Assembly (NCBI GenBank): GCA_964036195.1
Contig: OZ038457.1
Location: 1,153,180 to 1,217,179 of the forward strand
From: Sphaerolaimus hirsutus
Lineage: Eukaryota; Nematoda; Chromadorea; Monhysterida; Sphaerolaimidae
Length of the DNA stretch: 64,000 nt
Reading direction: 5' to 3'
The stretch's first letter is position 1; each line of letters begins with the position of its first letter. Made by a program: the position numbers and the translations under genes. Positions 29,592-51,188 of the stretch are shown piece after piece. Below the pieces are notes generated by a model. It was not told the DNA's origin. It saw only the letters and a list, made by a program, of their open reading frames with translations, and did no database searches.

Positions 29592-29611
29592 TTTTCACTA
29601 TTATATTTATA

Positions 29612-31870
29612 ATGCATAAACAATATACTCAAAATCTTGGTGGTTCGAAATGGTTACGTACGCAATATAATCTACCTAGTGATGAATGGAGAAAACATGT
29701 ACTATTGAATGAACCTGCATATTATTTAAAAGGACATCCATCATGGAGGCGTGGTTTTGAACGATTACCTATACTGGTATGTTATTTTTATGTTGTTGTT
29801 GTTGTTGTTGTTGTTGTTGACTACTACTGGTAACAATTTCATCAGGTTATTGTTGTAGTACTTTTGTAGGTGAGTGGGCCAGATCGTTTTTGGTCGGTCG
29901 ATTTAATGGTAATGCCAGAACGTGACATGCATGCAAATGACAATTATCGATATATACTGGTGTGCTGTGACGACTTTACAAATGAAGTTTGGATGGAACC
30001 ATTGAAACAAAAGACTGGAGTAGAAGTAACAGATGCATTCAAGCACATTATGAAACGTAACAATGGACGTGCACCCATGCGTTTACGTTCCGACTTTGAT
30101 CGATGTTTCATGTCTATACACTTTCAAAAGGCATTATATGGTGTTGGTTGTTTTTAAAATATTGTGTTTTTACTGTATCTTTACAACAACAACAATAACA
30201 GATAAAGTGTACGTTTGCACCTGCTGCTGAGGACGTGACACGGTTGCCGAAACTGGATTCATTTATTCAAAACATTCGCAAACGCATTGAAATGTACTTT
30301 ATGACACTGGTTGAACAGCAGAATCCTGAAGGTAAACATCGACAATGGATAAACATTTTGCCGGCAATTGAAAAACAAATGAATACTACACAAACAAGGG
30401 CATTATTTGGAGCAGCACCTGTTGATTTATCACAGCCACAAAGTGCAAATGCACATGCACTGTTGGTTGCACGACAATTGCGGCATAGCCGGAGACGCGC
30501 ACAGCCAAATACCGTATATAGTGGAACCAGTCGTGAGGCAGCGGATGCTGCACATGAAAAACTATCTTCACTGACTGGCTGGGTCCGCCTCTCAAGGCCG
30601 CCGCCCGCACATGGAAATCCTATAAAACTGGTTGCACGTGAAAGATACACACGCGAAGCGTTCCCATTAGGCCGTAGATTTGTTCAGTCTGATAGACCAG
30701 ATACATATTTTGTCTTGGATCCACAGGATGAAAAATTGGCACCTTTAAAAGGACGCTTCTATCGACAAGAATTGATTGCCGCAAATCAACCTGACGAAAC
30801 TAAACCCCCCCATTCTGCAAGGTTACTTGCTTTTGACGATATTACTACAACAGCCCAATCCGGTAGAAACCGTGATCGTGGCACCGTTACAACCACGACC
30901 ATCATTGGAAATCGTGGTAGTCGAAAAAATGACGATGACAACACCAATAGTCGTAGTGACAGTTCTAATAATAACAACAGTGGTACTAATTACCGCGGTG
31001 GCCGCTCTGGTTCTAATGCTAATGGTTCAGAAATGGCTGATTACAACAATCGTGGACTACCAGCATTGCTATCATTGGAAGAAATCCGCAAGAGACAGCA
31101 ACGCTCACAGCAACCACAACAACAATCATCGAAACAACAACATCGAACACCACTATTACCCATACGAAAGTCCGCCGCCTCTGATACCAAATCTCACCGT
31201 ACCAATGGAATTACCGATGGACTCGCCGATTTTGGGGAGATATCGACGACATCGCCAGCCATTGTCGCTAGCTCGCCAACAGCCACAGCAGAACCCAAAA
31301 CCGCAGCAGCAGAGCAGCAGCAGCAAGGACAAAAACGGAGGCGGAGGTCATCGAAACAAAAACACCTTGGGCAGCAGGCCATACCGTTACGAAAAAGTAA
31401 ACGACAAGAGGAAAAAAGACAGTGGCAAGAGCAACATGTATGTTTTTGTGATACTGCTATATAAATTTTTTGAGCTGTCCCCCCCAAACCAATGATTACA
31501 ATTGCAGGATCGTCGTCACAGAGTCGTCGCAGGACAACATAGCGATGAATATGGAGCAAAAGTCAGCACTTCCTCATATGAGCGCGCGCCCCCCCTCCGC
31601 GGAGCCTTCGGCGCCGCGGCAACACCACCCCGAGGACGCCACCGAGACCACGCTACTGGGCGGGGGGGACGGCGGAGAACCAAACATCGCCGGTCTGCGG
31701 CCACACCCCCTCCCAATGCCAAGAATGCTAGGAAATCGACACAGATGGGGCATGGTAATGGAATGAGTGGAGATGATCATGGCCGGAAAAGAAAGTCTGA
31801 TGTGCAAGGTCGTCGATTTAGTGCACGTTTAAAGGAACAGCAAAAACGCCGTGGTGGCAGTAAAGTGTGA
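29612..31870 (+). CDS. INT: Retroviral-type integrase with long basic tail
   Basis: It would insert the transposon and generate the 6-bp target duplication. Exons: 29612-29776, 29870-30140, 30202-31443 and 31508-31870. The core begins with RFWSVDLMV (first Asp) and continues through YRYILVCCDDFTNEVWMEPL and LRSDFDRCF (second Asp). At the position where relatives have the third acidic residue before R-T-L-K, this protein reads KLDSFIQNIRKR, so Asp replaces Glu. An SH3-like segment with DTYFVLDPQ and GRFYRQELI follows near 30700. The last ~350 residues are N/S/Q/R-rich and end in RLKEQQKRRGGSKV. Exons 2 and 3 do not join in phase with the visible splice sites, so a one-base error or an undetected site is likely. 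Confidence 0.88.
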
Positions 31871-32037
31871 TGTCACTAGTTGTAGTTGTAATAGTAGTAT
31901 TTAAGACAGATTATGTCATTCATAATACACTGTTTTCCCCATTCATTCACTTTTTATTGTTATTTTTTTGTCGTCTTTTAACTTCTACTATTTGCAGTCA
32001 TTAAACAATAATAATAAACAACTTTGTCTTTACAAGA

Positions 32038-34618
32038 ATGCGACAAATTGTATATCTTAGTTCTGATCGGCAGTGGAACGAGAAAACAAGCTCACACGGC
32101 TTCTTTTCCAATTTTTCATCTCGTAATTTATTACCGTCGGCGGCGGCGGCGGCGACTGCAGTGGGACCATCGTCAAACACTGTAGTACCTATTGGCAGCG
32201 GCATATTGCAGAATAACATCGGTATTTATGTGATGATGTTTCAACAGTAGCAGTAATACGGTATGAATTTACATGTGCCAATATATTCATCGCTGCTGTC
32301 GTTTTTCAGTGCCATCACTGTGTCCTGTCGACGAGGGAAGTACAATTGTGCTCGAGGAGACGTTTACACGTTGTGCAGATTTGCAAAATCGTGCAGACCA
32401 TATAAGTCTGATCGATTTGGAGCTTTGGGGATATCCGATTTTTGAAGGGAAGGACACAATCCCAGATTTTATTGTGGTAGATTGTGGTGGCACTTTGTTG
32501 TGGTGTCAGATTGACATTACCAGTGCATTGACGTTTCCAAGCAACAGTTTTGAAGATTGGGCTAAGGTTGTTGAGCGTGAGCTAAATTCGATTCTGCGTG
32601 CTAATCCCGAAGAAAACGCTGGAAGACTTGGTGGAGGGAAACTGAGGGAATTGGACGAATCGACTGCTGCACTTTTAAGTCGGCTGGAACCAGGTTTTTT
32701 CCGCTGGCTTCATGATGGGGCGAGCAAAAAAGCTGCCGCGGACGAACAACTCCTCAAAGAGCAAAACCAAAAAAGGTCAACAAAACATACTGGGGAAGGC
32801 AATCCAAAAAAACCTTGGGGTGATGGAGCTACACCACACCAAGGGAGCGGTACGACACCCCCCGTTCATGCCAAAATCGAGCAGCAGTCTGGACACGTCA
32901 AACCCAAACCTTCTGATTCAACCAACACCAATGAACATAATGTCGATAGCATCGACAAGAGGCAGCAGCAACAAGGCAGAAAAGGTGAAAAAAAGACTGG
33001 CATTGACGGCGGGCGCGGGCCGATTGAATCGTCGGATATGCCCACTGAGGAACGAAGCCCTAGGAAGTTCGTCGAAGTTGGCACAGTTCACGACATGGAA
33101 ATATCCCCGATTAAGGAGCGGTCAGTTAGTAGCAAAACCAGTAGCGATGACGAAGACCGCCAAGACACCGTCGACAACGGCGGCGGCGGCGAAACCAACA
33201 CAAAAGGCACCCTCAATGGAAGCAGCGGGAACGTCGGGAACGGGGGGCGTACAAAAAGTGTCGGTGGGGACAACATCATAGCTGATGATTCCAATGACAA
33301 CAACATTGAGAATCGAATTGTCAATGACATAATGTCGTCAATAATGGGTTGGAATGAAGATGGTTATGATGATACGGATCGTGCAACAGAAATGCTAACA
33401 GATTCTGATGATGATGACGATCAGTGGAAAAACAATGTTGACGATGGCTTCCCTGCGATAGATAGTGGCAATGAAGACTACAATGATGATGATGATAGTG
33501 TGAGTTGTTTTTGTTGTTTACTTTTTATAGTTGCTACTGCTTTATTGATGTATACACCACACAGGAAGTGCACCAACCACTGACCAAGGATGAAATATCT
33601 GCTGTTCGACGTGGACGTAGACTGCGCTTAAAAAGGCAGACAGCACAAAAGCCACCAACGACAACAACAAAACAGACCCAAAAGGATAATAAGCTACTTA
33701 TTAACGATGAAGAGAAAATTAACAAGGGTGTTTTCATGGTCATGGAAATTATTACTCGCAATGGATATAGAATGCCAAGTGCATGGGCATCTAGTATGGC
33801 CACATCAACGTTGCACTATTGGATAGCCAAACGATTGAAGGAAACGTTGACATTGCATCATCAAATGTCTATGGATGATGCGAGTGTTTTTGTGGCTTCT
33901 CTGCTACTTGAAGATGAAAACTCACTATTGAATGGAGATGCAGCACGCAGAAACACATTGTCGTTCGAGTCCAACTCTGAAACACCATCACATATTGGCA
34001 TACGTCGCTTTGCAATAAGAAACCCCGACACTAATCTTGTGACACGAATGTATATTAGTGAGCAGCTGGCACTCGAGTTGGGTTTTGTCAGTGTATCCAA
34101 CACACAAGCAAACCAAATTGACTGGCAAGACACGAGTAATGTTCAATATGGTCACATGAAAAACCGAAAACGTACGTATGCAACGGTCCCCCATCAGCTT
34201 GATTTACGACGACAAGTACAAGTTAGATGCGATAGTGTGGAACCAATGTGCACTGTGTTTCAGTCAGAAGAAAAGCCACTTTTGGCTGTGTTCACATGGA
34301 AAGCAGCACTACACTCACCCGACAGTGGATCGTGGGCATCTTCACGTCGCAACTATGCTTATGAACCACGATCTCCACATTTTGTACAGTTGAAACAGGT
34401 GCTTTGTCATATGTGTTTGTCATTAGCATGCTAATTATAACGTCCCCTTTCACTTGTACATGTACACACAGACACCGACAAGTGGATGTGAGAAAGGATT
34501 GAAACTAATCCTTTATAATCACTGGGGAAAACCAACTCGTGCCAATGGACTTGTGTTTGCAAAATGTGCACTTACAAATTCAAATGCAGAGGGTACTGTC
34601 GATGCGGATTGGATTTGA
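32038..34618 (+). CDS. mCP: Minor capsid (penton-like) protein, four exons, 784 aa
   Basis: Exons 32038-32221, 32310-33499, 33565-34398 and 34472-34618 join in phase. The N-terminus (YLSSDRQWNEKTSSHGFFSN) and the C-terminal part (MYISEQLALELGF, then VQVRCDSVEPMCTVFQ, then EEKPLLAVF, and a last exon with GLKLILYNHWGKP) follow the single-jelly-roll penton protein of Polintons. It would form the capsid vertices. Between them lies an unusually large insert (about residues 180-455) rich in S/T/D/Q, ending in strongly acidic DDDDDQWKNNVDD. Another frame inside this insert is open with its own ATG (32712-33281). A slightly separated gene, 34727-35287, follows on the same strand. Confidence 0.78.
32712..33281 (+). 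CDS. Overlapping frame inside the minor capsid insert, 189 aa
   Basis: It starts at tandem ATGATG and ends with TAG (33279-33281), entirely within the low-complexity insert of the minor capsid gene in a different frame. The product would be very basic and S/T/K/A-rich (KLPRTNNSSKSKTKKG). No similarity is recognised. It could be a compositional accident. Confidence 0.25.
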   Translation: MMGRAKKLPRTNNSSKSKTKKGQQNILGKAIQKNLGVMELHHTKGAVRHPPFMPKSSSSLDTSNPNLLIQPTPMNIMSIASTRGSSNKAEKVKKRLALTAGAGRLNRRICPLRNEALGSSSKLAQFTTWKYPRLRSGQLVAKPVAMTKTAKTPSTTAAAAKPTQKAPSMEAAGTSGTGGVQKVSVGTTS

Positions 34619-34726
34619 TAATATATGATGTTTTTCATGTTTCTTGTGGTGATGGTGATCTAATAAACAACACAATCTTCACTCAGTGTATATTTCTACT
34701 ACATTATTGTTACGAGTGAAATCAAA

Positions 34727-35287
34727 ATGGTGAATCAATCACGTTCGAAGCCATTATATCGATCTACGTCAAATTTTCTATCTACAGCACGACAGCAAAC
34801 AACCAGCTGCAGCTCTTATTTACAGTTTGCACCTCGTGGTACACATTGGTATGACAACATGGCCAATGTACCTGATGAAATATTTACAAAACAATATTGG
34901 TCACAACAGTTTGATCAAAACATGGGCGATTTGGAAGCCACAAACAGAGATAAATGGTCCTCTGCAATGCTGTCGGAACTGTCATCACAAAAGTTGGTAA
35001 CACCAAGCGTACAGGACACATCCGATGTGAACCTACAACAGCAACAAGAACAGTTTGCACACGCAACCGGTGAACCTGCAGCAGCACAGGGTGATTTGCA
35101 CTCACAAAAACCACCATTAGAAAATGTAGCTGCTCCAATCATAGGTGGGAAAGGAAAGAAAAAAGCAACAAAAAGTGAAAAATCACAAGAAAGTGTTCAG
35201 TTTGTACAGCCGCCGAGTAATAGTGGTACAAGTGCAAAATCGAACAGTTCCACGGCTGGAATTGCGATATCCACAGAGTGGCTATAG
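34727..35287 (+). CDS. Unknown Polinton protein, 186 aa
   Basis: Single exon, ATG to TAG, between the two capsid genes. Residues 35-75 look ordered (FAPRGTHWYDNMANVPDEIF, then TKQYWSQQFDQNMGDLEATN); the rest is Q/S/T-rich with a lysine patch GGKGKKKATKSEK. The position between penton and major capsid genes suggests a virion component, which is inference. No recognised domain. Confidence 0.55.
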   Translation: MVNQSRSKPLYRSTSNFLSTARQQTTSCSSYLQFAPRGTHWYDNMANVPDEIFTKQYWSQQFDQNMGDLEATNRDKWSSAMLSELSSQKLVTPSVQDTSDVNLQQQQEQFAHATGEPAAAQGDLHSQKPPLENVAAPIIGGKGKKKATKSEKSQESVQFVQPPSNSGTSAKSNSSTAGIAISTEWL

Positions 35288-35500
35288 TGATTACACTAAA
35301 CTGTTTTTGACCAATAATTATCATGTTATTTTTTCGATATGCAATAATAATAAAGCGATAAAGACCCCCCAATCGATCATTGATTACATGTAGTCACGTG
35401 TACATTTTTTGCACATGAATGTACAATACATCATACTAATGTAATTGTACAAAGACTTTTTTATGTATCATGTGCATAATGTATGTATCAAGTTTACGTC

Positions 35501-36631
35501 ATGGCTTCGAATCACCCTGCACGTATATTGAGTCCAAGAAAAAAACTACTTGACAGTGGATCACATTTATTACCGTGTCCACCAGAATTCAGACCTGGTA
35601 TGTTATATGTAATAGTGGTAGTTAAACGACGACGACGACAACGACGACAGTTGACCCGTTAAACACATATCCCTCTTTTTAGATGCTTTGCCACCAACAC
35701 AAGCATATGTGAGTCATTGTGAACGTGAGCAGCTTCTACTTATCAGCGATGGTAATGAAACATCACCATGTAAGGACAAGATAATGCTTTATTTTGATTT
35801 ATACTTGTAGCACATTCCAATATATTAACCACCCACCTTAAAGATGTATTTACAACCGTGGCCGCCAGTACGGGCCTATTAGATTTCTCATCGTTGCATT
35901 TACACTTGGTGATGCGTGTTGTGACAATCGATGGACATGAGATAAAAGCAGAATATCCCGCCGGAAACATATTTAATGCTACAGCTCCTGTGACACTAAA
36001 AGATCAAGTTGCATATGTGCCAAATCCCTTGGAAAGCATATGGGATGGAATTGAAATATTCCACAATTCACTACTGTTGTGTAGAGAGTCCAACTATAGT
36101 AAAAAGGCATATATAAAGAAAATTTTGCAAACAAGTGGTGTTTATCGACGTACACAATTGGCGGCAAGTGGCTGGGTCGAACTCAGCGATGAAGAAGCAC
36201 CACACATTCAAAGTGGTGGAACCGAATATTTCAGAAAAAGATCTGAGCCTGTTTTTTTAACACAAGAGTTTTATGGAAGATTGGCATTGGATTTCGGAGA
36301 ACAGGCGAAACCATGGCATTCTGCAATGCAATTAACAATTGTACTTAGACGTGTGCCAGACAGCTTAATGTTTGAATCATTTAGCTTACCAAAAGAATAC
36401 ATTGGAAAACTAAAAATCAAATTCGACAGTATTGAGTTGTCTGTACGTAAAATTCACCCGGTATGTCAGATTATGTGTTTTGCTTTTTTATATGTTATTT
36501 TCACATGCTGTGTTTTTCAGGTGACATCACTATCTGTTGCTTTGGCTGACCGTGTCAAGACACATGGAATCTATCATTCCTTCAGACAATATAACGTCGG
36601 GCAGGTGTCATTTTCACAAACGAATGTGTGA
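35501..36631 (+). CDS. MCP: Major capsid protein, first jelly-roll block
   Basis: Exons 35501-35597, 35683-35751, 35811-36460 and 36521-36631 join in phase. The block ESIWDGIEIFHNSLLL, then YSKKAYIKKIL, then YRRTQLAASGWVEL, then LTIVLRR and KIKFDSIELSVRKIHP follows the N-terminal jelly roll of Polinton double-jelly-roll capsid proteins. The frame stops with TGA inside a 77-bp hairpin (36626-36703), while the second jelly roll continues after 36855. Either an intron without a recognisable acceptor or an insertion separates them. Confidence 0.75.
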
Positions 36632-36850
36632 AAGTATACAAAGAGCAAAAGTGAAAATAACATATTTTCACACTTTTTCTGTTTGTATGCTTTCACATAT
36701 GCACTTGTGAAACCCCCCCACGTATTTTCCTTACTGAAGGTGCTCGGGCCGCGCCTCCCATTGCCCTAGGAACACAGGTTTTTTTTTAAAAAAATTTTAA
36801 AATTTTTTTAAAATTTTTTTAAAAGTTTTTTAATTTTGTTTTCTATTACA
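36626..36850. repeat. Hairpin plus A/T tract between the two MCP blocks
   Basis: 36626-36703 is an inverted repeat (TGTGAAAGTATACAAA against TTTGTATGCTTTCACA). It is followed by a short G/C-rich patch and a long run of T and A blocks (36778-36840). No AG acceptor directly precedes the second coding block, so the piece looks more like an insertion or rearrangement than a clean intron. Confidence 0.55.
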
Positions 36851-36854
36851 TGTG

Positions 36855-37493
36855 GGTCGACTACCGCGAGGATTAATAATATGTATGAGTAAGACGGATG
36901 CTGCCAAGCCCCAGTCGACAGATGAACCAAGGCATAATTATCTGCCAATGCACGTATCCGATTTATCGGTTCAAATTGGGTCAAGACTATGTCCAAATAG
37001 ACCGTTGCGCTTCAATTGGAGTCTAGCAAAAAGCTCTGACATTTACAGAGAATGTTATTCTATGATTGAAAACTGGACAGCTGTGCAAAATGAGTTGACA
37101 ATGGCCAAGTTTACAACATGCCAATTTTTTGTATGTATAAGCTTATGCAATGACAAGGTTACAAGGTATGTCAAAGCGTAAAAGGTCATTTTTGCACTTT
37201 TTACATCCGTTTTTCAATCATTTCAGCAATAGCTGGGAAGCCCTGAACACTGGAGATGCATTTCTGAATATGACCTTTGCTGAGCCCATACCTTTGGGGG
37301 GCTGTATACTCTATACAATACTTGTGAATGATAGTTTTCTACGAATTGGTATGTTATTTTCACAATATGTTTTTTTCACGATATGTGTTTTTCACAAGAT
37401 GTGATATTCACTATGATTTTGCGTTGTTATATGTTATATTCCATACATCTTTCAGATCCAACAAACACCATCTACACTCAACAAGTCCATGCA
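36855..37493 (+). CDS. MCP: Major capsid protein, second jelly-roll block
   Basis: The frame opens with GRLPRGLIICMSKTDA, matching the GqlPk-type motif that begins the second half of Polinton capsid proteins. It continues with LPMHVSDLSVQIGS, RECYSMIENW and, in the exon at 37227, NTGDAFLNMTFAEPIPLGGC; a last short exon near 37456 ends the protein. The exon ending at 37130 and the one at 37227 are out of phase by one base at a run of six T beside the donor. It would form hexon-like trimers. With the first block it covers the usual MCP length. Confidence 0.72.
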
Positions 37494-38273
37494 TAGTGAT
37501 CAAGTGTCATATATGTTATATGTGTGTGTATATAGTAAAGTGATTTGTGTTTTTTTTCCTATTGTGTGACAAATAAAGCAACCTTCCCATTCACAGATGG
37601 CAATTTTATTTAGAAATTGCAATAACAACTACAAGAAAAAATACAAAAATGAAAAATAAAACAACAATTAGACAATAATTGACATATAAAATCCTAACAT
37701 ACAATGTTTTTTTGGGTGAACACTTTATGGATCACATTTCCCATTTAAGTGGTCAAAAAGAATGGGAATTTTTTTATTTTTTTATACAAACAGTTGACAT
37801 ACAATGTTTTTTTGTGTGTGAACACCATGTGAACACTTTCCCATTTAAAATATGAAGTCAAAAAGAATGGGAATTTTTTTATTTTTTATTTTTTAGTTTT
37901 CCGTTTTATATTTTTTTTTTTAGTTTTCAATTTTGATGGTGATGAACAGTTGACATGAAATGTTTTTTTGGTGTGAACACTTTGTGAACACTGTCCCCAT
38001 CTTGATGTTTACAGTATTTGATATAGAGAGAAAGATAGAGAAAAAATATTTACAAAAGAGATGGGGACGTTTTACATTTTTTACACTCACTCACTCACTC
38101 TTACCATAATATGGAAGCACCATTGACAATCTGTACATACATTATATGCATTCTGGTGGCCTGTTGCTGTACAACATTTTTGGTAATCTGCTGTGCAGCA
38201 CATTAAAACAAATACCAATAATGACATTTTATTTACACACAACTGTACATAAGTTCACAGCCTAATAAAGAAT
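37494..38273. other. Convergent 3' region with tandem repeats
   Basis: Polyadenylation-type AATAAA occurs near 37573 for the plus-strand capsid gene, and TTTATT words on the other side suit the convergent minus-strand gene. Three diverged direct repeats of a TTGACATACAATGTTTTTTT...TGTGAACAC block lie near 37697, 37794 and 37950. A 31-codon ATG frame at 38111-38206 would encode a Cys-rich hydrophobic peptide (ICILVACCCTTFLVICC); I cannot say whether it is used. Confidence 0.5.
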
Positions 38274-41200
38274 TCACATGGCTCTGCAAATCTCCATGCA
38301 TGCATCTGGTGACATTGACACATGCCCTTCACATTCACAATGGGCACAGCGAATGTACAGGTGATGAGTGGCCTCGGTTGTGTTGCAGAACCTAGGGATA
38401 AAAGACAAAATGTCAAAGGTTGTCATGCGTTTGTTGCTACAGGTTACATTGGAAAGATGTAGCTATCAAAAAGACCTGCAATTTTTCCAAAATTCCAAGC
38501 CATTTGTGGCCTGCACTTTTTCAGGCACATGTGCCTCAAAGTTACTGGGCTGCTGGTCACATAAGCTGTGGGGGGGGACATAGCCTGCTGTGTTTGGGGC
38601 GCTAGAGCTGAGCCCCCTGCAATAGCCAGGATTGAGGGGGATTTGGGGGGTCTGGTAGGGGTTGGTGTCGATGCACAGGACTTGTGCCATAAACTTTTCC
38701 ACATCTCTCCATCTGAGCAGCTTGACCATGACCATCTCGTCCACCTTCTTTCCAATCGGTAGGAGCCCTTTGCCAGTAGCTTTGCTGGCTTTCTGGAGTT
38801 TGTCCACGAACTGCGTCTGCATCTCTGTGACGGTGGTGCCCTGGGGGATCTGAAGGAGGGGGGATTTTTTGTTTTAGATTGTTTTATAAGTGATGTTCAA
38901 GTGTACAGCAACAATTGACAACCAACATGGCCATCAACTTTGATGTATACTTGTCCAGACCGTTTGTCTGTTGCCCATTCCACCATTGGCAGAGTGTTCA
39001 GTGGTTTTGGGGGGTTGCCAAAACCCCTGCGCACACGAGCATATAGATTGGTATAATGCTCAACATCCAGGGGTCCACTGGGTTTGCGCCCTGGATAGTC
39101 TTCAGTCAGCCAAGTGCCGGTCAGGTCATCCCCATTCAAGTCTCTGTTCTGCCTAAATACAGCCAATAATCTACTCATTGACTGTATTCTATTGCTGCGC
39201 CTTGACATGACCCGTTGCAATCTTACAGGAAAGCCACAGCCCATGTGCATGGACATGGCAATGGACACAGCGCGCACATCGCATGTGTTCACCATGTGCC
39301 CCCGCACCAGATTGCAGTCCCTCTCAAACATCATGGTCCATTTTTGCTCTTCTACCGGGACGCCAGCAAAACCTTCAAACAGTGCTTCAATCGGGAGTAC
39401 ATGCCGTTCAATGTCAATGGCACGCTGCAGACCCGTGTATGAGCTCAAAGCTAATGTGGTGGCCAGCATTGCGCGATTGGATTCCACCACATATTCGCGC
39501 ACGGATGCATAAGCTTGGGCAAGCTGCACATTGTGCATAATGTGCATCTGATGGGCAGCCTTTTGCTGTTTGCTGGGAGGCTTTCCTCCCACACCTTTAA
39601 GCTTCTTCAGCTTTTTACTGGTGGTTGATGGAATGATGTAATCTGGGCTGCCCAACTCAGCTGTGACCGGTGGCTGCAGTCTTCCCCTGTCGAACAGTGG
39701 TTGGCCAGCTTCATCCATTGCATTGGCCAGCAATGGTAGAATGCCTGCCATACCCGTGGTGGCAGCTGACAGGCACTCTTCAATACTGCCAGGTGTAAAC
39801 GAGCCAGCTGGTGCATCCGCGTGGGCGTTGATGATGGTGGTGTTGGTGCTGGTGGTGCTGCTGCTGCTGGCACGGTCAGGATTGGGTCCCCTCATTGGTG
39901 GCTGGAGGCTGACGCTCCGGCAATCATGTCCATCTTGGAGTGCATAATCTGCAAAAAAACAATACATTTTGTAGTCACAATATTGGTTTAAACGTCATGC
40001 CCCTCCACATTTAGCAGACATTCCACACAAACCCCCCACTTACCACAAAACCCACCCCCCAAAAAGTGTACAAAAACAGCCAACCTTGCGCAACTGGCTG
40101 GACATAGCTGGCAGATCGTCCATGTACTGGTTGAGGCCTAGCAAACTCCACAGCACATTCTCTTCTTGCATCTGAAACATATCGCTTGCTGTCCCCCCTG
40201 GGCACGTGTTGGGTGGTTCTGCTGCATTCATCCTCAGATTGATAAGTGCCATGGCATCCAGCTCCTCCAGCGCTTTCTGTTTCTTGTCCTGATCCTCCCC
40301 CTCTATAGCTGCATGCCTTTCCTTGGCCTGTTGCGCCAACATTTCCTTCAGTTTCTCCAGGGGGGGCAGCTGCATGCGTTCTCTGGCAATCTGTCTCAGT
40401 CTGGGGCACAGATCCAGCTGGAACTGCTCGTTCACCTGGAGCAGCTCTCTGATCTTCTTCACTTCCTGTGGTAGACTGGCCAAATCCAGTTCCTGGTCCT
40501 GCTGTACGTTTCCTGGACACAAATTCGCTTGTTCCACTGCCTCGCCACTGTGGGGGTAGCATACGACCGGTCCCTCTTTGTCTTTGTCCACTTGTAGAGC
40601 TGCTGTCTTTTTCTCCAGCTGCCTTAGTTCCAGCTTTGCGTTTACATGCCTCAGCATACGTGTTTGGGGGGATGGCGTGCTGCCCACACTGCTGTTGGTC
40701 TTTGTGCTGGTTGTGCTTGCTTTGCACAGCTTGCTGTACAACCGGCGGCACCGCTTGCACTTGTGCTTCTTTCTCCGGGGCAATGAGCTGATTGAACTGC
40801 ATGTACTGTTGTTCGAGCCGCTTTCGCTGCTTATCCAAACCCATTTCCCGGGCTTGCGATGCTTCTTGGTAGGTTTCGTAGTAGGTTCCTCCACCTCCTT
40901 CTGACCTGACGAAAACAGCCTTTTTCTTGCCTGTCTGGCTGTGGTGCCCGGATGGGTGACCCTCTTCACATGTCTCTGAGGTGGCTTGGGGGCGTTCAGC
41001 AAGCTGCTGCTGGCCATTGGGGTCCTCTGCTGTAGACTGTCCACGTTCCATGTCTTCACAACCTCCATTCCTGCCACTTCTCTGGGTGGAGACTCCAGCA
41101 CTATCACCTCCATGTCTGGCCTGGCTTTCTTTGCTGGTGGTGGTGGTGGCTGCTTTGGTGGGATTGGTGGCATTGGAATGGCCACTGTTGATATCCTGGC

Positions 41201-42316
41201 TGCTTCTACTGGTGCCCCTGCTGGCAGTGGGATCGATGCTGGATCCTGCTCCTCCAGCACCGTGGATGCCTGTGAATGGGGGGGCATGAAGTGTACTACA
41301 TGTATTGATTGTTAATTCACCCGTCCACACATTGAAACTTAACAGTACATTTCACCACTAACAAAAACATCACCACAATTCTGTGAAAAAAGCCAACAAA
41401 CCTGTTGCTGTGGGTCCACTTCCATCTGTGTTGCTGGTGCTGCTGCTGCTGGGGTCTGGTTTGCTCCTTCCCGCTGTTGCTGGGGTGTTGTGTCCATTGG
41501 AGCTTCTGACTGGATTTTTGGTGGTGCTGCCCATGGCTGTGCCCTTGCTGGTGCTACTGCTGTGCTGCTGCTGCTGCTGGCCATCTGGTGGCTCTGGCTG
41601 GTGGCTGGGGGGTCCGTCCTTGCACAGGTGCTGACCTGTGTACTCGTCGGTTCCATCGCATCTGCTCTCCTTTCTTCTCTCATCACTTCTCTCTCTGGAT
41701 CCTGTGCTGGTCTTTCTCTTCTGACAGGCTGGCTTGACTTTGTCGTTGTCACTACCACCGTTGCTGCTAATGCCTTCTTTGGAAGAGCCTGAGAAGGGAG
41801 AAAAAAATTTGGCATTATGGTTGCAGCATTCTGGTCGCAGTTTTGTGGTCACTACATAAGTCTGACAATCAACATTACATATACATAGCCATCAAAAACA
41901 CGACAAACCTGAGGGGCTGGCTGCTGACCCTCTACTAATCTCCTGACCCTCTGGGGGTACATGCCTTCCTCCTTTTGTGACTTTTTCGTTCTGACCATTG
42001 TCTCCTGCTCTGACAGGTTCCTTGCTGGGCCTCTTGGTGGCTGGACTGGGATCGGTTGGCGCTCGTTCACAAGCACACTCACTGAAGTGGTAACAGCTTC
42101 GTTTGTGCCAGACAGCGCTTGATCCACATTCATCCGTATGGCGTGTGGTGGTATCGCCCTCGCCAGTACAGCTGCAGCTTCTGGACCAAGTGTTCTCACT
42201 TGATAGCCTGGACTGTCTGACGTCGGCAGGGCGATTCCCACTTTCACTTGACCTGATGGTGGGGAATGTGTATGTGTATGTGTATGTGTGTATGTGTATG
42301 TATATGTATATGTGTA

Positions 42317-42347
<31 letters not shown>

Positions 42348-43715
42348 GTATGTGTGTGTGTGTTTGTGTGTGTTTGTGTGTGATTATGATAAGTGAAAAC
42401 ACAGCAGATACAATGGCCACAAACAATTCCCACAGCAAAAACAAACCCCACAGGACAGAAAAAACACAGTAGAAACCGACCCTGATTTGTCCTTTGCTGC
42501 TCTGGTTCTGCCACCAATGCAGCTGCCCGGTTTGGTGCTGGTTCCCCGTTCATTGAAATCTGACCCAAACTCTGTCAGCCTCTCAATGTCTGCCACAGGT
42601 TGCACAGGTCCAATGTCGTCCACCAGGACCCTGTGTGGGGGGTTGCTTATTGATACATTTCTCACAGTATTTGCATGAATAGGTATCCTACAGTGTGAAT
42701 GTAGCCAAAAACATTGAATAATGCCCCTGGGGTCTTATTTGAGCACCAAGATTACATTAAAACACCCCAGAGGTCTTATTTAAGCTACAGCAAAACCACA
42801 TCTCACCTTGCTTTTGGAATGTGTAGAAGTTGACCCCGTCCACGTCCACGTCCACGTCCACGAGCAGGAAGGCTTTCTGTTTCCTCCTCCTCTGTCTCCT
42901 GCTTCACCTGTTCCAGCTCAAGCGAATCCACCGGTGTTTCTGGTATTTCTGGTGTCACTGGTGGCCTTCTGCCTCCAGCGTAGATCCCTGGCCTGAGGAC
43001 ACTGCCAACAAGCGCTGGCGTGCCTGAGTACATGGAAGGAAAGAGATGTGTGAGAGAAAAAATGGCATGCACACCACTTTTGGCCACATTCCACTCAGAA
43101 CACACAAAAGCCTACCCCCCACAAGGTCCACAAACGTCCAACCAAAAACATCTCCAAAACCCACCTGGTCTCCAGAAACTTGACAGTGCGTTTTCGTGTC
43201 TTGCAGCTTCTTGACCACTGCAACCAGTGCCTCCAGCAGCTGCAAGCGCTCGCGCATGCACGTGAACTGTCCGTCCTGCACCGCCTGTAGTACTGCCAGC
43301 AGATTTGGATGATGGAGGGGGTGATTGGGCGATGGCGTCGCTCCCGCCTGTCTGCAATGTGGGGGGAGTTTTATTTGAACATATGTCTAGTGTTCCCCAG
43401 GGGAGCTATTTTTTTATTTAAGGTGCTTTTCAATGTAAATAAAAGTCCCAGGGACAGTTTTTACAAATAAAAACACCAAAAACCAACCTTGTTTTGTTGC
43501 TTGTCAATTTTTTTGCCTCCACAGCCTTCTTCATTGGAGGGGCCAAATTGCATGTGCAATTCCTTGAAGGCGTCCCTGAAAACCTCTAAAAGCTCCTGTG
43601 AGGTTTTTCTATCCTCGAATGAGATAAGCTCGAACAAGAGCTTTTGCCCGCGCCCAAAGTCGTCGTCCAGATTGTGTAGAGGCAGACCGCTTGAAATCCT
43701 GAGTATGAAAGGCAC
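38274..43715 (-). CDS. Ten-exon dual-frame gene, frame 1, 1403 aa, unknown
   Basis: Exons (high to low): 43715-43488, 43351-43165, 43023-42807, 42630-42481, 42252-41909, 41788-41402, 41269-40085, 39948-38927, 38849-38476 and 38391-38274. All junctions are GT/AG and in phase, totalling 4212 nt from ATG to TGA. Features in order: a helical start (QKLLFELISFEDRKTSQELL), an RGRGRGRG tract, long S/T/G/Q-rich disorder with a coiled-coil patch (EMGLDKQRKRLEQQYMQFNQ), then an ordered block in exon 8. There RSNRIQSMSRLLAVFRQNRD and PLDVEHYTNLYARVRRGF resemble, weakly, a BEN-type DNA-binding domain. A Cys-rich end follows (IRCAHCECEG). The gene is distinctly more G+C-rich than its neighbours. Function unknown; if the BEN hint holds, it could be a chromatin or DNA-binding factor. 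Confidence 0.6.
39892..42568 (-). CDS. Frame 2 of the same transcript, 686 aa
   Basis: A second reading frame starts at an ATG in exon 4 (42568). It runs through exons 42252-41909, 41788-41402 and 41269-40085 using the same splice sites, always in phase, and stops early in exon 8 (57 nt in, about 39892). That is about 2.0 kb with no stop in either frame. Its product looks protein-like: TLGPEAAAVLARAIPPHAIR early, a PIPPKQPPPPPAKKAR proline tract, and a long charged helical part (SLPQEVKKIRELLQVNEQFQ, PPLEKLKEMLAQQAKERHAA) near the end. No family is recognised. It would need leaky scanning, an internal promoter or alternative first exons. Confidence 0.5.
42257..42385. repeat. TG/TATG microsatellite in an intron
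   Basis: It is an imperfect (TG)n/(TATGTG)n array within the intron 42253-42480 of the dual-frame gene. The His/Thr-repeat open frames it creates are artefacts. Confidence 0.9.
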
Positions 43716-43863
43716 ATTAAGAGTATCAAGAGCATATCAGGGTTTTGCACATCTTTTTCCTTGAATTAACACCCCCAGAGTACTTGTTTTTCATCAAAAA
43801 CGCTTGAATAAAAAAATCAAAAGGTACAATAATTTTGATGGGATTAATTCGCACAATTTTTAA

Positions 43864-44280
43864 GCTGAAAATATAATATAATGAGGGGGGCATTTTTAGT
43901 AGTTTTGTAGAAATAAACAGTTTTCAAAGTTTCCGGGGTTTTTTATATGTCAAAAACGATCACATTTTCCAAGAAAAGCGATCTGTTTATTATTTTGATC
44001 CAAGTAATCAATAGATCGATTTTCTTGGAAAATGCGATTGTTTTTGACATAAACTTTATAGAAAAAACGATTTTCAAAAGTTCCGGTTTTTTATGTCAAA
44101 AACAATCGCATTTTCCAAGAAAATCGATCTATTTATTACTTGGATCAAAATAATAAACAGATCGCTTTTCTTGGAAAATGTGATCGTTTTTGACATATAA
44201 AAAACCCCGGAAACTTTGAAAACTGTTTATTTCTACAAAACTACTAAAAACGCCCCCCCTCATTATATTATATTTTCAGC
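43864..44280. repeat. 417-bp near-perfect palindrome in the divergent intergenic region
   Basis: GCTGAAAATATAATATAATG at 43864 is mirrored at 44280, with the centre near 44072. Each arm also contains a nested inverted repeat (TTCCAAGAAAAGCGATCT with AGATCGATTTTCTTGGAA). It lies between the starts of the minus-strand dual-frame gene (43715) and the plus-strand membrane protein (44523). It could be a foldback insertion or a cis-acting element. Confidence 0.9.
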
Positions 44281-44522
44281 CTAAAACCAGACATAAACAG
44301 TTTTGGCACTCTACACTGAAACATTTCTCTATGCCACAGAAATGTAAAGTATTTATCAACAAAAGTACATATTTTTTATGTATCCAAAACAAAAGCTAGG
44401 TTTCTATTGCGTAAAAAGTAAACGCTTTAATAATTATCACTTGAATTCTGTCTAGAGGAATATTATTTTCAAAGATCTAAAACATAAAAACACTAAAAAT
44501 AACATCCAAAACCCTTGGTAAA

Positions 44523-47500
44523 ATGCAAAAAACCTTTGTTGTGGCACTTTTGACCATTTTTGGTATGTTTTAAAAAATTGGCTTTTGTCCAAGATTTCGA
44601 AACATTTTTCAAATTGTAGGCTACACATTCGCTGGCTATCATAGCATCTGCGCCTATTGTGATTGTCCTGCCAATGCAACAGGCACAATCAACTGCTCAA
44701 TTCAGGATCTAAAGTATGGCGGATTTAGAGCGGTGCGTTTTTAAAAGTTGAAAAAGACTACAATTTTAAAACTTTCGCAATTGAGAACATCATGTAGGAC
44801 AGAATTAAAAGCCAATGGAGTATTGCCAAAAAATTACAATTACCAGATGGCTTTTGTGACCTGGAAAAACAGCTGCAGCCCCGGTAAGTAAAGAGAGTAT
44901 GCAATATCAATATGAGAAGATTTGGGATGAATTTATTTTATGTTCATGTCTCCCATTGGAAATGTGCCAACCATCTTTTTATACATGTGTTTTCATTGCA
45001 AAAAATAAGTCAACAGTTTTTTCATCTTTTAAACAAAAACACATGTATAAAAAGACAGTTGGCACGTTTCCAACGGGAGACGCTTCCAATATTACAATAG
45101 AGTATCATGTCCGCCGAGTATAAAAAAACTTTATCATTATATTTCAACATGTTTACACAGTGGAACATTTTCATAGGTATAAAGATCTTTTGTATAAGAG
45201 TTCAATTTATGTTTTAATTTGTTAAGGGATTATAGATACATTGGGGGCAATGAGTCAATTAAACAAGCAAAAACCCTTTTTTCAGACTTGGCCCAAACAC
45301 AATAATCGAGTGCAACATTGCCAAACCCACACCACCCACTACCCACCTGGCTTTCAAACTGGGCACATTGCCAAAAACGACATCCGGCAACCTGGCGCCG
45401 GCCACAAGCAGCACAGTAGTCACTAATACGTGGAACATGGAACAGTATGTGACAGCGCCAGGAGATGTGATGACAATTTCGAATGCGGTCAGTTTTATAG
45501 TTTCTTGCTATAGTTGGGGGTTTTCACTGCAATAGAATGATGTATTATTTGACAAAAATCACTCTGAAACATAGGCTAAATGGTGCCAAGGCATGGAGGT
45601 TGAGCAGAAAAAAAGTTATGGTGCTATTATGGATGTAAAACAATTGATGTTGTCACAACATGAAACAGAAATTGAAAAAATTTCTGATCTGAAGGCAGCT
45701 GAAAAAGTTGACAATTGTGATGTGCTCAAAGGGGTGGAACAGACGCAAAATGCACACAGTATACACATTTCTCAAAAGCTGGCAGATATTAACACAAACA
45801 TTGTGGCAAAAATGAATCAGCTCAATGCAGACATTTTGAAAAAAATTGTGGAAAATGATGTGCCATCCAATGTTCATTTCACAACAATGGTATGTAAAAC
45901 ATACATTTCACATTTTTACAACCCTTTGTTTTTACAATGCTACATAATGTATATCACACCACAGAAAAGTGATGTGCAGCCTGAAACATCTGAACAAAAA
46001 ACCAGCTGTTTTTTGACAAAATCCAAAACATGGTGACAGCACAGCAACAGAGTGATAAAGCTGAAATTGTGGCTGAAATGACAAAGCATGACATTCACAT
46101 TTTGGAAAAGCTGAAGAGCATGGAATCCGATTTTGAAAAAAGCATTGAGACAAAATTAAAGGCACACACATCAGAAATTGTGGAAAAGCTTACTGTGAGC
46201 CATACTCAGACAATGGTATGTAAACAGAACATTCCCATTCTTTTTTATATAGTCATTTGTTTTTTACATTACTACATAATGTATATCACACCACAGAAAA
46301 GTGATGTGCAACCTGAAACATCAGAACAAAAAAATCAGCTGTTTTTTGACAAAATTCAAAACATGCTGACAACACAGCACCAGAGTGATAAAGCTGAAAT
46401 TATGGCTGAAATGACAAAGCATGACATTCACATTTTGGAAAAGCTGAAGAGCATGGAATCTGATTTTGAAAAAAGCATTGAGGCAAAATTAAAGGCACAC
46501 ACATCACAAATTGTGGAAAAGTTTGCTGTGGACCATGCCCAAACAATGGTATGTAAACGGAACATTCCCATTCTTTTTTATAAGGTCATTTATTTTTACA
46601 ACACTACATAATGTATATCACACCACAGAAAAATGATGTGCAGCCTGAAACATCAGAACAAAAAAATCAGCTTTTTTTTGACAAAATTCAAAAAATAGTG
46701 ACAACACAGCACCAGAGTGATAAAGCTGAAATTATGGCTGAAGTGACAAAGCATGACATTCACATTTTGAAAAACCTGAATGACATGAAATCTGATTTTG
46801 AAAGCAACATTGAGACAAAACTGGCACAGTGCACATCACAAGTTGTGGAAAAACTCAATGTGGCTATGGAAAAGCTGAAGGTGGATCATGTTCACACAAC
46901 AGCCACCAGCATAACAGACATGGTATGCATTTACATATGTAACATTAATTAATACATTTCAATGTTTCCTTCATTTCCAACATTTTACATATAGAGGACC
47001 CATTCACACTCTGAAAAGCTGGAAAAACATGTGCAATCAATTTTGGAAAAAATTGATAACAATGGTGAAAAGTACATTGAAAGGATATCATTGATAGAAA
47101 AACAGACCTCAGAGTACTGTAAAAAGGTCGACAACAAAATGGTATTTCTTCATATTATTTTAGACACAATTTTTAAATATAAACATGTAAATCATACATA
47201 AAAACACAGGAAACATTGGCAACAGATATAAAACAAATGAATCATACCATCAATTGTATGTTTGATTCCCTCTGTGATGGCTTTAAAAAGGTGAATGCCA
47301 CAATCAGGAATATGGAGGTATGTACACTTGTGGCTTTTGTCAATTTTTATATTAATGTTGCTTTCAAAATACAGATGACATGTCCTACCAATGCACCAGT
47401 GGAAAAAGAAATTGAGACAATTGTAAAATTGTTGCAAAATTTGCAAACCATGGAAAAAAGCACAACCTCCATGCCTAGCACCACAGAAAAACCATTGCAA

Positions 47501-48082
47501 ACCAAACAATTGGCCAATGTACAGCATCCATTTACCACAAATTTGCTTGAAAGCACTATTGAGAAAATTTTTATGCAGCAAATGAATATAGTAGAAAAAA
47601 GGTTGAATGAGAAACAGAGTCAAAGGCACACTGTAAATTAAATACATTTACATTTCTAAACAAAAACAGTAAAAAATGTTTCTATTTTTCAGGATTACAT
47701 GCTTATGATGGGCTTCAACATTGTACTCAGCTGCCTCACATTTGTTTTCATGGTTGCATTCATTATTGGATATAGAATTTATGCAAAAGATGGCAGAGTG
47801 GCAGACACTGATTTGGAAAGAATGGAAACGTAAGTTTCCAGGTAAAACAAAAATCAAAATTCAAAAAGTGTAAAAATTAAAAAATATAGGACCGAAAACA
47901 CCGCAACGACAACGAGCGAGCCCACATATCGCGTGCCAACACACTTTGCCGGTGTTCGTTTACAAATGGGCAGGGGTTGGGTTAACAGTACGATGTTGGA
48001 AAGTGTAACCTACCCCCAAACCACCCCCAATATCTATCCATCTATCCCAAGGAACAATGCATTTTTGTCTCCTATCTCCTAA
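44523..48082 (+). CDS. Type I membrane glycoprotein with coiled-coil stalk, 13 exons, ~798 aa
   Basis: Exons: 44523-44562, 44620-44732, 44798-44883, 45286-45487, 45575-45889, 45965-46215, 46297-46548, 46629-46922, 46995-47141, 47210-47317, 47375-47632, 47693-47829 and 47890-48082. All join in phase except that exon 6 is one base shorter than its sister copies. Residues 1-18 (MQKTFVVALLTIF...) are a signal peptide. The ectodomain has N-glycosylation sites (NATG, NCS) and cysteines, then about 480 residues of heptad-like helix. Exons 6, 7 and 8 are tandem copies of one exon (SDVQPETSEQK...HDIHIL). A transmembrane helix (MGFNIVLSCLTFVFMVAFII) precedes a ~75-residue tail. This is the architecture of a virion spike, fibre or fusion protein; that role is inferred. 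I recognise no family. Confidence 0.72.
44947..45120. mobile_element. Host-type foldback/MITE inside intron 3 of the membrane protein gene
   Basis: GTCTCCCATTGGAAATGTGCC is mirrored by GGCACGTTTCCAACGGGAGAC at 45061-45081. It is followed by GTATCATGTCCGCCGAGTATA, the same end motif as host elements near 2960 and 7827. This explains the long intron 44884-45285. Confidence 0.65.
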
Positions 48083-48211
48083 AACCCCCAAGCCCCACCC
48101 CCCAAATCATCCAACCATCTATCTATCTATCTACATTGAAAAACGATATATATATATATATAAACAACCCCCCCAAATCATCCAGCCTAAACCCCCCCCC
48201 CACTCCCCCAG

Positions 48212-49649
48212 ATGCCAACCTACGAGCGCGCAAAAGCCATGGCGGACATGCAGACCGTAATGCGCGATACAAGCAGGACATTTGCACAATTGATGAATGA
48301 AAGTGCACACGATTTGGATGAGAATGTTCCTGGTTGCAGTGGTTTGTTATGTCAGTAAAAAATGTCGTTCTTCTTCTACATTTTTTAAAATGCTAAAGTC
48401 CCGGAGAAAAACGCTTCCAAATGCCTAAAACCCTGCTCACCCCCCTCAAACCGCTCAGCTATCTATCGAATCCGGAGAAAAACGCTTCCAAATGCCTAAA
48501 ACCCCCGCTCACCCCCCTCAAATCGCTCAGCTATCTATCAAATCCGGAGAAAAATGCTTCCAAATGCCTAAAACCCCGCTCACCCCCTCAAATCGCTCAG
48601 CTATCTATCAAATCCGGAGAAAAATGCTTCCAAATGCCTAAAACCCCACTCACCCCCTCAAATCGCTCAGCTATCTATCGAATCCGGAGAAAAACGCTTC
48701 CAAATACCTAAAACCCCGCCCACCCCCCTCAAACCGCTCAGCTATATATCGAATCCGGAGAAAAACGCTTCCAAAGACCTAAAACCCCGCCCACCCCCCT
48801 CAAATTGCTCACCCCCCTCAAACCGCTCAACTATCTATCGAATCCGGAGAAAAAAGCTTCCAAAGGCCTAAAACCCCGCCCACCCCCCCTCAAATCGCTC
48901 ACCCCCCTCAAATCGCTCAGCTATCTATCGAATCCGGAGAAAAACGCTTCCAAAGGCCTAAAACCCCGCCCACCCCCCTCAAATCGCTCACCCCCCTCAA
49001 ACTGCTCAGCTATCTATCTAATCCGGAGAAAAACGCTTCCAAAGACCTAAAACCCCGCCCACCCCCCTCAAATCGATCGCCCCCCTCAAATCACTCAGCT
49101 ATCTATCTAATCCGGAGAAAAACGCTTCCAAAGCCCTAAAACCCCGCTCACCCCCCTCAAATCGCTCACCCCCCTCAAATCGCTCAACTATATATCGAAT
49201 CCGGAGAAAAACGCTTCCAAAGACCTAAAACCCCGCCCACCCCCCTCAAATCGATCGCCCCCCTCAAATCACTCAGCTATCTATCGAATCCGGAGAAAAA
49301 CGCTTCCAAAGGCCTAAAACCCCGCCCACCCCCCTCAAATCGCTCACCCCCCTCAAACCGCTCAGCTATCTATCTAATCCGGAGAAAAACGCTTCCAAAG
49401 ACCTAAAACCCCGCCCACCCCCCTCAAATCGATCGCCCCCCTCAAATCACTCAGCTATCTATCTAATCCGGAGAAAAACGCTTCCAAAGGCATGATATCA
49501 AACAAATAAAGATTATATTCTTCGCAGCCGAAATACCGCTCCACGAAATGACGAAACGCCACGAGATGCCGAAACGCCACGAGATGCCGAAACTCCACGA
49601 GCGGCCGAAAGTGACATTGTGCCGCGCAGCAAAGCCAGCACGACATTAA
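48212..49649 (+). CDS. Small two-exon protein spanning the minisatellite, ~82 aa
   Basis: Exon 1 (48212-48341) starts at an ATG that directly follows a pyrimidine-rich CCCCCAG, so it could also be an internal exon. Exon 2 (49528-49649) follows a good acceptor (TTCTTCGCAG) and joins in phase. The product has a helical N-terminus (ERAKAMADMQTVMRDTSRTF) and a short repeated basic segment (KRHEMPKRHEMPKLHERPK). The intron contains the 1.1-kb minisatellite. It may instead be the 3' end of the preceding membrane-protein gene. Confidence 0.35.
48401..49490. repeat. Minisatellite, 14 units, 70-bp then 89-bp periods
   Basis: Units start with CCGGAGAAAAACGCTTCCAAA at 48401, 48472, 48544, 48614, 48684, 48755, 48844, 48934, 49023, 49112, 49201, 49290, 49379 and 49468. 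The first five periods are 70-72 bp. The later ones are 89-90 bp because a 19-bp CTCAAATCGCTCACCCCC segment is duplicated inside the unit. The CAGCTATCTATC core also occurs outside the Polinton. Confidence 0.95.
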
Positions 49650-50232
49650 ATACTTTTTTTGGGGGGTATGTTTACCCATTTTTTTCCATTTTATGAAGGG
49701 CCATTAAAAAACCTGAAGGTTGTTTAAAATGCAAAAAGTAAAAAAAAACCCAAAAAAGGTAATTTCGTTCGGTTCGTAAACCTTTGTTTCATTTCTCGCG
49801 CGGCCGCGTCTGCCGCAGCCCAGATGCGCATGGACCAATTTTCATATTTACAGCTCATAGATGTCAAATAATTAATTGAAAAATGGTATTTTACACAAAT
49901 AGTGATTTATTAAAAATTAAAGTAAATGTATAAAATAGAAATTCATTCATGATATGGAATATCCGATATTTCAGCATTTTAAAAAATTTGAAAAACGTTT
50001 TTGTAAAATATCATTTTTTAACAAGCTGATCGTTTTTCAATGCTGATCCATCTAGATGCATTTATTCTTCACATTTTTCTGCCTTCATTACACTTAATAT
50101 TATTCACTTTCATTTATTTCTTCATTCCGTTTTAAATACCTTTATTTTTAAAAATTTTTGAAAAAACGTTTTAAACATTTTCGTTTATTTTCATAAAAGG
50201 CATAAAAGTTTCAAATTATCATTCCAGGATAC

Positions 50233-50569
50233 CGTATTTTGTAAAAATATCCCCCCATGGGTCTTTATTTGACATCGTTTGATCGCTCTGCTTTGCGTCA
50301 ATGTTTTACATTCTACTCTAAAAATAAAAAACGTCGAATAAAGTGACACAATTTAAACAGATGAAAATTGACAGCAGGAAAAGTAAAGCAAGTTGTATTA
50401 CAAAAACCCTCAATGTTCTTTTGAGTGTTTTCAATTTGGTCTTATATCATGATTTTAAAATATGTCTTGACATAATAATTTACAATATGTAACTAAAAAC
50501 ATTAACGCAAAGCAGAGCGATCAAACGATGTCAAATAAAGACCCATGGGGGGATATTTTTACAAAATAC
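50233..50569. mobile_element. 337-bp MITE inside the Polinton
   Basis: Inverted ends of about 65 bp (GTATTTTGTAAAAATATCCC at the left; inverse at the right) enclose AT-rich non-coding DNA. The stretches 49650-50232 and 50570-51188 around it show no gene that I can support. Confidence 0.85.
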
Positions 50570-51188
50570 AACATGTTCAATATTGTAACATAAACAAATC
50601 GACGAATTTGCATGAACATGTCCTTGTTACATCAAAACGTCTAAAACAGATGTTTACACTCATCTTGACGTACATAAATTCAATAATCTGGCGGAAACAT
50701 CGTTTTTAATGATCACATTAATCCAATTACCGCGCGCAATTGAGCGGCCCATCTGCACCGAATGGAACAACGACCCTGTTTTTTACAAGATCATAAAGAA
50801 ATGTAAAAAGAATTTTGACATTTGATCCAGACTTAATTTACCCATGGCAATTGTCCCAAACCACATTTACATACTAAACGTATAGAAAAAACCAAAATAA
50901 ACACACTTAACTGCTTCTTTCCATTTTCACACGATGCAAAAACACAAAAGAAACATTGTAGGTTTATTTAATCTCCCAGTTTCCTTATTTTTGACAATTA
51001 GATTCATTTTTGTTCATTATTTTCAGTTCTATTTTTCATAGAAAACAATCAATATTTGAATGTATTTCATATGGGGCGACTATCAAAAACGTTTTGAAAG
51101 GCATTCTGCTACAAAAAATAGACAATAAAAAGTTTGTCCTAAAAATTGGGTAAAATAAATCCAGCTCCTGTGCCATGTCGCAGCATGC

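Follow-up and report, generated by a model that had tools for sequence, protein, structure and literature searches.

Long overlaps between genes on the same strand are best known from viruses. Among 80 proven overlaps of eukaryotic viruses (at least 180 nt long, in genomes below 30 kb), 5 exceed 1000 nt, the longest spans 2682 nt and the mean is 442 nt (PMC6195259). In apple stem grooving virus, the movement protein overlies the linker between the polymerase and coat-protein domains, and in tymoviruses a large open reading frame (ORF), in a replicase/movement protein pair, lies wholly inside a longer gene that uses a different frame (PMC8227390). Cellular transcripts with two frames are represented by INK4a/ARF, for which asymmetric evolution has been reported (PMC8227390), and by XL-alpha-s/Alex (PMC2329644). 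Here we describe a locus of the nematode Sphaerolaimus hirsutus that may belong with these systems. It lies in a stretch of 64,000 nucleotides (contig OZ038457.1, positions 1,153,180 to 1,217,179, assembly GCA_964036195.1; below, the window), in which a Polinton-like element carries a spliced minus-strand gene, A, whose middle is also open in the +1 frame, as ORF B.

The host element has a type B DNA polymerase (PolB) and long terminal inverted repeats, as Polinton/Maverick elements and virophages do. A figure legend on virophages mentions ORFs with overlapping reading frames (PMC10741620). In the accessible text of the Polinton/Maverick literature, which included few subscription articles, no large conserved overprinting was found.

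Gene A was modelled with GT/AG splice sites, and its frame (frame 1 of the initial annotation) has no stop other than the one that closes exon 10. This frame had been described as open from ATG to stop; its openness up to one terminal stop stands, but the supposed ATG at 43715 reads GTG in frame A. No start codon was located for frame A: exon 1 (43488..43698) probably begins at 43698 after an acceptor, tactcag followed by GATTTC, which was set by eye as the probable 5′ border, and the start is placed upstream. ORF B, in frame A+1, is spliced over exons 4–8 (39892..42553, minus strand). It begins at the ATG at 42553-42551, 15 bases off the previously proposed 42568, and ends at the TGA at 39894-39892. 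As had been claimed, it remains open in phase through the introns until a stop early in exon 8; its length is 681 codons. In exon 4 (42481..42630), A is alone before 42553 and accompanied by B after it. Both frames are stop-free in the putatively double-coding exons 5 (41909..42252), 6 (41402..41788) and 7 (40085..41269), the last of which holds the most conserved part of B. Exon 8 (38927..39948) contains frame A, with a conserved domain (RNRDLNG), as well as the last 18 codons and the stop of B. The overlap measures 2043 nt, and the third frame has 33 stops over the same region. The overlaps of INK4a/ARF and XL-alpha-s/Alex are shorter.

Judging from the sequence comparisons below, we consider it highly probable that the locus is a genuine case of overprinting, in a Polinton-like element, with an independent protein B encoded in +1 over the middle of the spliced gene A. 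The gene would make a long protein A whose N-terminal (exons 1, 3 and the start of 4) and C-terminal (exons 8–10) parts are both conserved and are separated by a long hydrophilic, probably disordered linker. Read in +1, the same DNA would encode B, an apparently helical protein that is independent of A and starts at its own ATG, and a shorter +1 ORF, B′, would lie over exons 1–3. Presumably both A and B are produced, and translation of B might begin through leaky scanning or reinitiation after B′, or B might have an internal promoter. The linker of A would mainly have to stay open and hydrophilic; because it would need little beyond that, B could be conserved at its expense. Both may be element proteins of structural or replication type. 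Overprinting had already been proposed in the initial annotation, and it gains support from related copies, from shuffles that keep B and from the conservation of the B protein.

The genome searched comprises 348 Mb, and all relatives discussed here are copies within it. The exon-7 product of B gave 121 matching stretches. From about 90 exon-7 places we took 36 loci spread over the identity range (28-98% identical in B); in five of them (L039, L041-L044), the comparison covered less of exon 7 (648-1008 bases). No B stop was observed in 35 of the 36 loci and no A stop in 32; the third frame contains 16-26 stops in each of the 36. Thus, stops are not scattered in one frame of the related copies, a pattern that the initial annotation had held to speak against two coding frames. 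The single B stop lies in L027. This locus also contains another, incomplete copy of exon 7 in the opposite orientation (5437-6288), which is separated from the first one by about 2 kb.

In four distant loci (L045-L048, of which L045, L046 and L047 are the places of L041, L042 and L044), exons 7 and 8 are merged in one exon. Measured from stop to stop, the A ORFs there are 1191, 997, 875 and 881 codons long, and the B ORFs nested in them have 654, 508, 509 and 480 codons, respectively. The two frames are open together for 475-632 codons without an intron, and A, continuing from the overlap into the exon-8 domain, meets no stop for 875-1191 codons. Because exons 7 and 8 are one exon, the double opening in these loci is independent of the splicing model.

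Closer to the window, 12 of 13 close rows of the alignment (window included) keep both frames open through exons 4–7 at the window's exon borders. The splice sites bordering these exons are kept in the close rows, bar two exceptions: L009 has lost 11 bases at the start of exon 5, and L020, whose slice is without part of exon 9 and without exon 10, has CT at the exon-4 acceptor as aligned. All other length changes within exons 4–7 are multiples of three. A frameshift or an assembly artefact is ruled out by the 36 relatives, the 12 close rows and the one-exon overlap of the four distant loci.

The borders of B are also kept. Its ATG is present in all 13 close rows, as is an in-frame TGA upstream, at 42577. 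In a more diverged set of eight loci (L021-L028, below the 59% group), ATG and upstream TGA were found in all seven loci where exon 4 was read; L027 has no exon-4 match. L050, the upstream part of the L048 place, has an ATG at the corresponding AATGA and a TAA six codons before it, and the start was not traceable in L049 and L051. Between 43698 and the ATG of B, the spliced sequence contains only three ATGs, at 43553 (A) and at 43534 and 43257 (B′). The C-terminal region of B is strongly conserved, with an invariant RQIAR among others in an exon-7 alignment of ten sequences that has 28 invariant columns. The B stop falls shortly after the last conserved residues, also in loci that lack an intron between exons 7 and 8.

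The overlap is poor in T (12.9%), and the double opening was compared with what synonymous shuffling of either frame produces. When the B protein and its codons were kept, 19.6 stops were expected in frame A of the window (13.0 with codon junctions kept; minimum 7), and none is observed; over all nulls the expectation was 13-31. When A was kept, 4.7 stops were expected in B (P(0)=0.0025), 2.2 with codon junctions kept (P(0)=0.04) and 6.6 with the codon use of the non-overlapping exons, where none of 2000 samples was free of stops. Taken together, the nulls gave 2-8 expected B stops, with P between <0.0005 and 0.04. Judged by the window alone, an open A is ruled out as a by-product of B, and an open B could almost be a by-product of A.

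We applied such tests to 11 sequences, which make up nine families by B identity (the window pairs with L020, and L037 with L039), using 500 synonymous shuffles per sequence, or 60 when junctions were preserved. Given B, 8.7-20.8 stops were expected in A (3.7-10.8 with junctions kept); all 11 sequences have 0, and no shuffle gave 0. Given A, the expectation for B was 1.8-6.6 stops (P 0-0.11). When 16 further ORFs in the window were put to a similar test, a second frame stayed unbroken for 228 codons at most. The claim that the double opening goes beyond chance is thus borne out for A given B, and for B given A the opening is only mildly improbable in the window. Shuffling that preserves composition had been suggested as a check. 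With B kept it never yields an open A; with A kept it sometimes yields an open B, yet the B protein is conserved beyond such shuffles. The argument once drawn from long charged helices in frame B has to be dropped, as shuffles synonymous for A yield just as much helix over the second half of exon 7. Chance or a T-poor composition alone is rejected by the shuffling nulls and the relatives.

To assess constraint on the B protein, its identity was measured on A-based alignments and compared with a null that keeps A. It lies above the mean of this null in all 23 pairs compared. In 12 pairs at 33-38% B identity, it reached 0.18-0.35 against 0.12-0.16 expected from A alone (z 3.3-9.6). In 11 close copies, the overlap has 113 variants, of which 7.7% would be expected to introduce a stop into A or B and none does (P=1e-4); B-silent changes occur in excess (49/83, 37% expected, P=5e-5). 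Omega, roughly estimated and scaled to variable intron sites, is 0.40 for B and 0.69 for A, and the product of the two matches the rate of changes that alter both proteins. The close copies L009-L019 differ from the window by 1.2-1.9% in the overlap exons, 5.2-8.5% in introns 4–7 and 1.3-1.8% in exons 8–10. The examination of constraint in related copies that the initial annotation had called for thus found it, at the protein level, in B.

These data bear on the idea that A is the only real coding frame and that B lies open by accident in T-poor sequence, which we find scarcely credible. It would be in line with the A codons of the window, which leave just 2-8 expected B stops, with the frequent opening of B in single sequences once junctions are kept (P 0.02-0.70) and with the amount of helix in B over the second half of exon 7, which is as the A codons predict. 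However, B lies well above the A-keeping null at deep divergence, has its 28 invariant columns and is under purifying selection in the close copies. As far as sequence can decide, the A-keeping null and the invariant columns reject an accidental B.

Divergence by codon position was analysed between the window and L022 of the 59% group (L021 and L028 are much alike), with overlap segments aligned on B and the others on A, so that each frame is somewhat favoured in its own segments. Outside the overlap, changes fall mostly on the third position of A (exon 8, positions 1/2/3:.33/.26/.48). Inside it, divergence peaks at A position 1, which is B position 3, both in exon 5 (.37/.26/.15) and in exon 7 (.33/.22/.20). 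Within exon 4, the pattern switches at the ATG of B, from.04/.04/.29 before to.33/.29/.29 after it (24 codons each). Exon 6 breaks the pattern, with.21/.26/.19 over its alignable first 42-44 codons. Additionally, exon 5 is 59-61% identical in B versus 40-43% in A in seven loci of the 59% group (the L027 matches are shorter). By these comparisons evolution is asymmetric: B is the conserved protein, and A in the overlap behaves like a tolerant linker.

Several observations weigh against overprinting. Four of the 36 exon-7 copies (L021, L027, L035, L036) have one A stop each. In exon 6 of the 59% group, the identity of A (66-67%) does not fall below that of B (56-58%), as judged from the first 42-44 codons, which alone can be aligned. 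With A and its junctions kept, it is not unusual for B to be open in a single sequence (0.3-2.6 stops expected). Introns are an uneven yardstick, with variable sites ranging from 4% (intron 8) to 35% (intron 1), and introns 8 and 9 are no more variable than exons. No homologue was found outside this genome in viral contigs, the protein database, PDB or Pfam. Finally, the amino acids of A are under weak constraint within the overlap. A-silent changes in the close copies are not significantly enriched (30/64, 39% expected, P=0.11), and A is at the level that B alone predicts between the window and L034, L037, L039 and L040 (z 0-0.4). Against the same B-only null, z is 2.0-2.8 for the window with L041-L044 and 0.6-3.2 in four pairs without the window; it is 4.2-5.9 in five pairs near 50-55% and more in closer pairs, values that are inflated by shared silent-site ancestry.

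The lack of a significant enrichment of A-silent changes, and amino acids of A near the B-imposed level in several deep pairs, would suit an explanation in which only B is translated over exons 5–7. Exons 8–10 would then come from another transcript (e.g. one joining exon 4 to exon 8), and A would be open through T-poor codon use. We regard this as improbable. With B codons reshuffled, 9-21 A stops are expected, and 0 were found in 11 of 11 sequences from nine families. Moreover, A in L045-L048 continues without a stop from the overlap into the exon-8 domain, and not one of the 113 close-copy variants makes an A stop (4% expected, P=0.025).

The searches for homologues covered viral contigs (with exon 8, exon 7 of B, exon 7 of A and the B alignment) and a protein database (with exon 8, the exon 8–10 part of A and the B alignment), and neither returned one. 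Compared with PDB, the B and exon-8 alignments reached E=0.17 at best; in Pfam they gave weak matches from 0.012, scattered over one or two members. Single-sequence AlphaFold models had a mean predicted local distance difference test score (pLDDT) of 50.6 for exon 7 of B and 36.1 for exon 8, too poor for a fold search. The low-confidence model of B exon 7 contains helices.

Upstream of B, the second +1 ORF, B′, is spliced over exons 1–3 (42955..43534, minus strand; ATG 43534-43532, TGA 42957-42955) and has 100 codons. In exon 2 (43165..43351), A is open and poorly conserved and B′ is conserved, which corrects the initial annotation as to the conserved frame; in exon 3 (42807..43023), frame A is conserved and B′ terminates. 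In all seven loci of the 59% group that were compared over one block of about 50 codons in exon 2, identity is 53% for B′ (null 25-26%) and 30-34% for A (null 26-27%), the latter close to its null. B′ has 100-101 codons in 12 of the 13 close rows and stops at 66 in L009. In the 59% group, with L024 and L027 left out, it has 94 codons and a like ending in five of six loci (L021, L022, L023, L026, L028), and in L025 it is shifted by one base. It was not found in the distant loci L049-L051. By its sequence, B′ looks similar to B, as a second nested +1 ORF. Neither B′ nor the asymmetry between A and B had been noted in the initial annotation.

The better conserved frame thus alternates along the transcript. 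The same alternation would arise if A1, B′2, A3–A4, B4–B7 and A8–A10 were joined by frameshifts or alternative splice sites into one mosaic protein, with no double coding, and acceptors shifted into the +1 frame of exon 2 are indeed visible by eye. We consider this very unlikely, however: B has a conserved ATG with an in-frame stop before it and its own stop just past the last conserved residues, also where the exon 7/8 intron is absent, and a mosaic would leave frame A open for no reason. If overprinting is extended to B′, the transcript would be a three-protein message, an idea towards which we lean slightly on the sequence patterns. A scaffold-like A would carry the successive +1 genes B′ (~100 codons) and B (681) over its linkers, B being perhaps reached via reinitiation. 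The overlap would be old, with families sharing only ~30% of B residues, and the linker could be almost any open hydrophilic sequence.

The remaining parts of A are conserved to different degrees. Frame A of exon 1 is 56-62% identical in L021, L022, L023, L025 and L026, 46% in L028 and 31-33% in L049-L051; no match was found in L024 and L027 of the 59% group. Exon 3 reaches 53-57% in seven of the eight loci of that group (not in L027), and exon 8 has 102 matches across the genome. Exon 9 (38476..38849, minus strand) is 60-61% identical in all eight loci. Exon 10 (38274..38391, minus strand), which encodes the Cys/His-rich C-terminus and the stop, is 82% identical in all eight and 54-69% in L045-L048. 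In the 59% group it stands far above exons 1, 3, 8 and 9 (mostly 46-62%), and it may form a small zinc-binding domain. Just upstream of exon 1, at 43885-44258, lies a structure resembling a miniature inverted-repeat transposable element, with 169-bp inverted repeat arms (99%) that are 36 bp apart.

The host element spans 37.6 kb (16053..53640) between perfect 421-bp inverted repeats (100%), with 36.7 kb between the arms. PolB pieces lie between 20410 and 22738 on the plus strand (DNA_pol_B_2, E=2.1e-11 and 8.6e-07). For a survey of 90 exon-7 places, fragments of one copy were merged, short end pieces were omitted and the main PolB places were taken from the matches listed. At least 83 of the 90 places have PolB within 45 kb, at least 81 of them in the convergent arrangement of the window, with a median distance of 20.07 kb among the matches listed; 7 of the 90 have no PolB among the matches listed. 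The A/B pair thus travels with the element.

No integrase was found with Pfam among the 27 longer ORFs scanned between the repeats, and an Integrase_H2C2 match was assigned to the flanking BEL/Pao element. With regard to packaging ATPase and capsid proteins, a Walker-like motif is visible by eye at 26574-26972, with no Pfam match and no PDB match better than E=0.91; 35798-36628 has no Pfam match either, and its best PDB match has E=0.16. We call the element Polinton-like because integrase, ATPase and capsid genes were not confirmed. By eye, TTCTGGTA flanks both repeats as a candidate 6-bp target site duplication, but outside the left end there are additional pieces of the repeat. At 15742-16174, short terminal-repeat pieces in both orientations adjoin this end, as if a second element end abutted there.

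On both sides (13791-15860 and 53577-59582, minus strand), parts of a BEL/Pao retroelement were recognised, with Peptidase_A17, DUF1758/1759 and a weak reverse transcriptase match. It includes an env-like fusion glycoprotein (Monjiviricetes_fusion, E=4.6e-15), and this env appears to be interrupted by the 37.6-kb element. Within the latter, three other same-strand ORF pairs on the plus strand may, from their sequence, be further overlaps: 30199-31464 / 30776-31495, whose second frame is the one of 228 codons (P=0.002 by synonymous shuffling), 32267-33583 / 32679-33281 (P=0.016) and 23860-24366 / 23874-24326 (P=0.008). At 48397-49500 (plus strand), repetitive sequence with recurring SGEKRFQRPKTPPTPLKSL-like words keeps several frames open, and this strand is strongly C-rich.

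Among the described systems, the locus can be set beside apple stem grooving virus, where a conserved independent protein likewise overlies the variable linker between two domains of a longer one; here, however, the overlap lies in a DNA element of a eukaryotic chromosome, is spliced and has two +1 ORFs. With tymoviruses it shares a large ORF that is fully contained, in another frame, within a longer gene, but these are a virus group outside transposons, and the overlapped part of their longer protein holds an enzyme domain. INK4a/ARF and XL-alpha-s/Alex are similar as cellular transcripts with two frames and differ in having no transposon context. The asymmetry between A and B is the pattern described for viral overlaps (PMC8227390). 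Since the more variable protein was the newer one in all 23 asymmetric overlaps of known genealogy in that source, B would, by analogy, be the older frame across the overlap.

An overlap of 2043 nt in a spliced gene of a chromosomal element, present in dozens of diverged copies in one genome, would rank near the top of the viral range. It would also offer a natural experiment, with many paired sequences in which the mutual constraint of two proteins and the survival of a linker under overwriting can be measured. Finally, it suggests that gene finders that allow one frame per exon miss or mis-join proteins of such elements.

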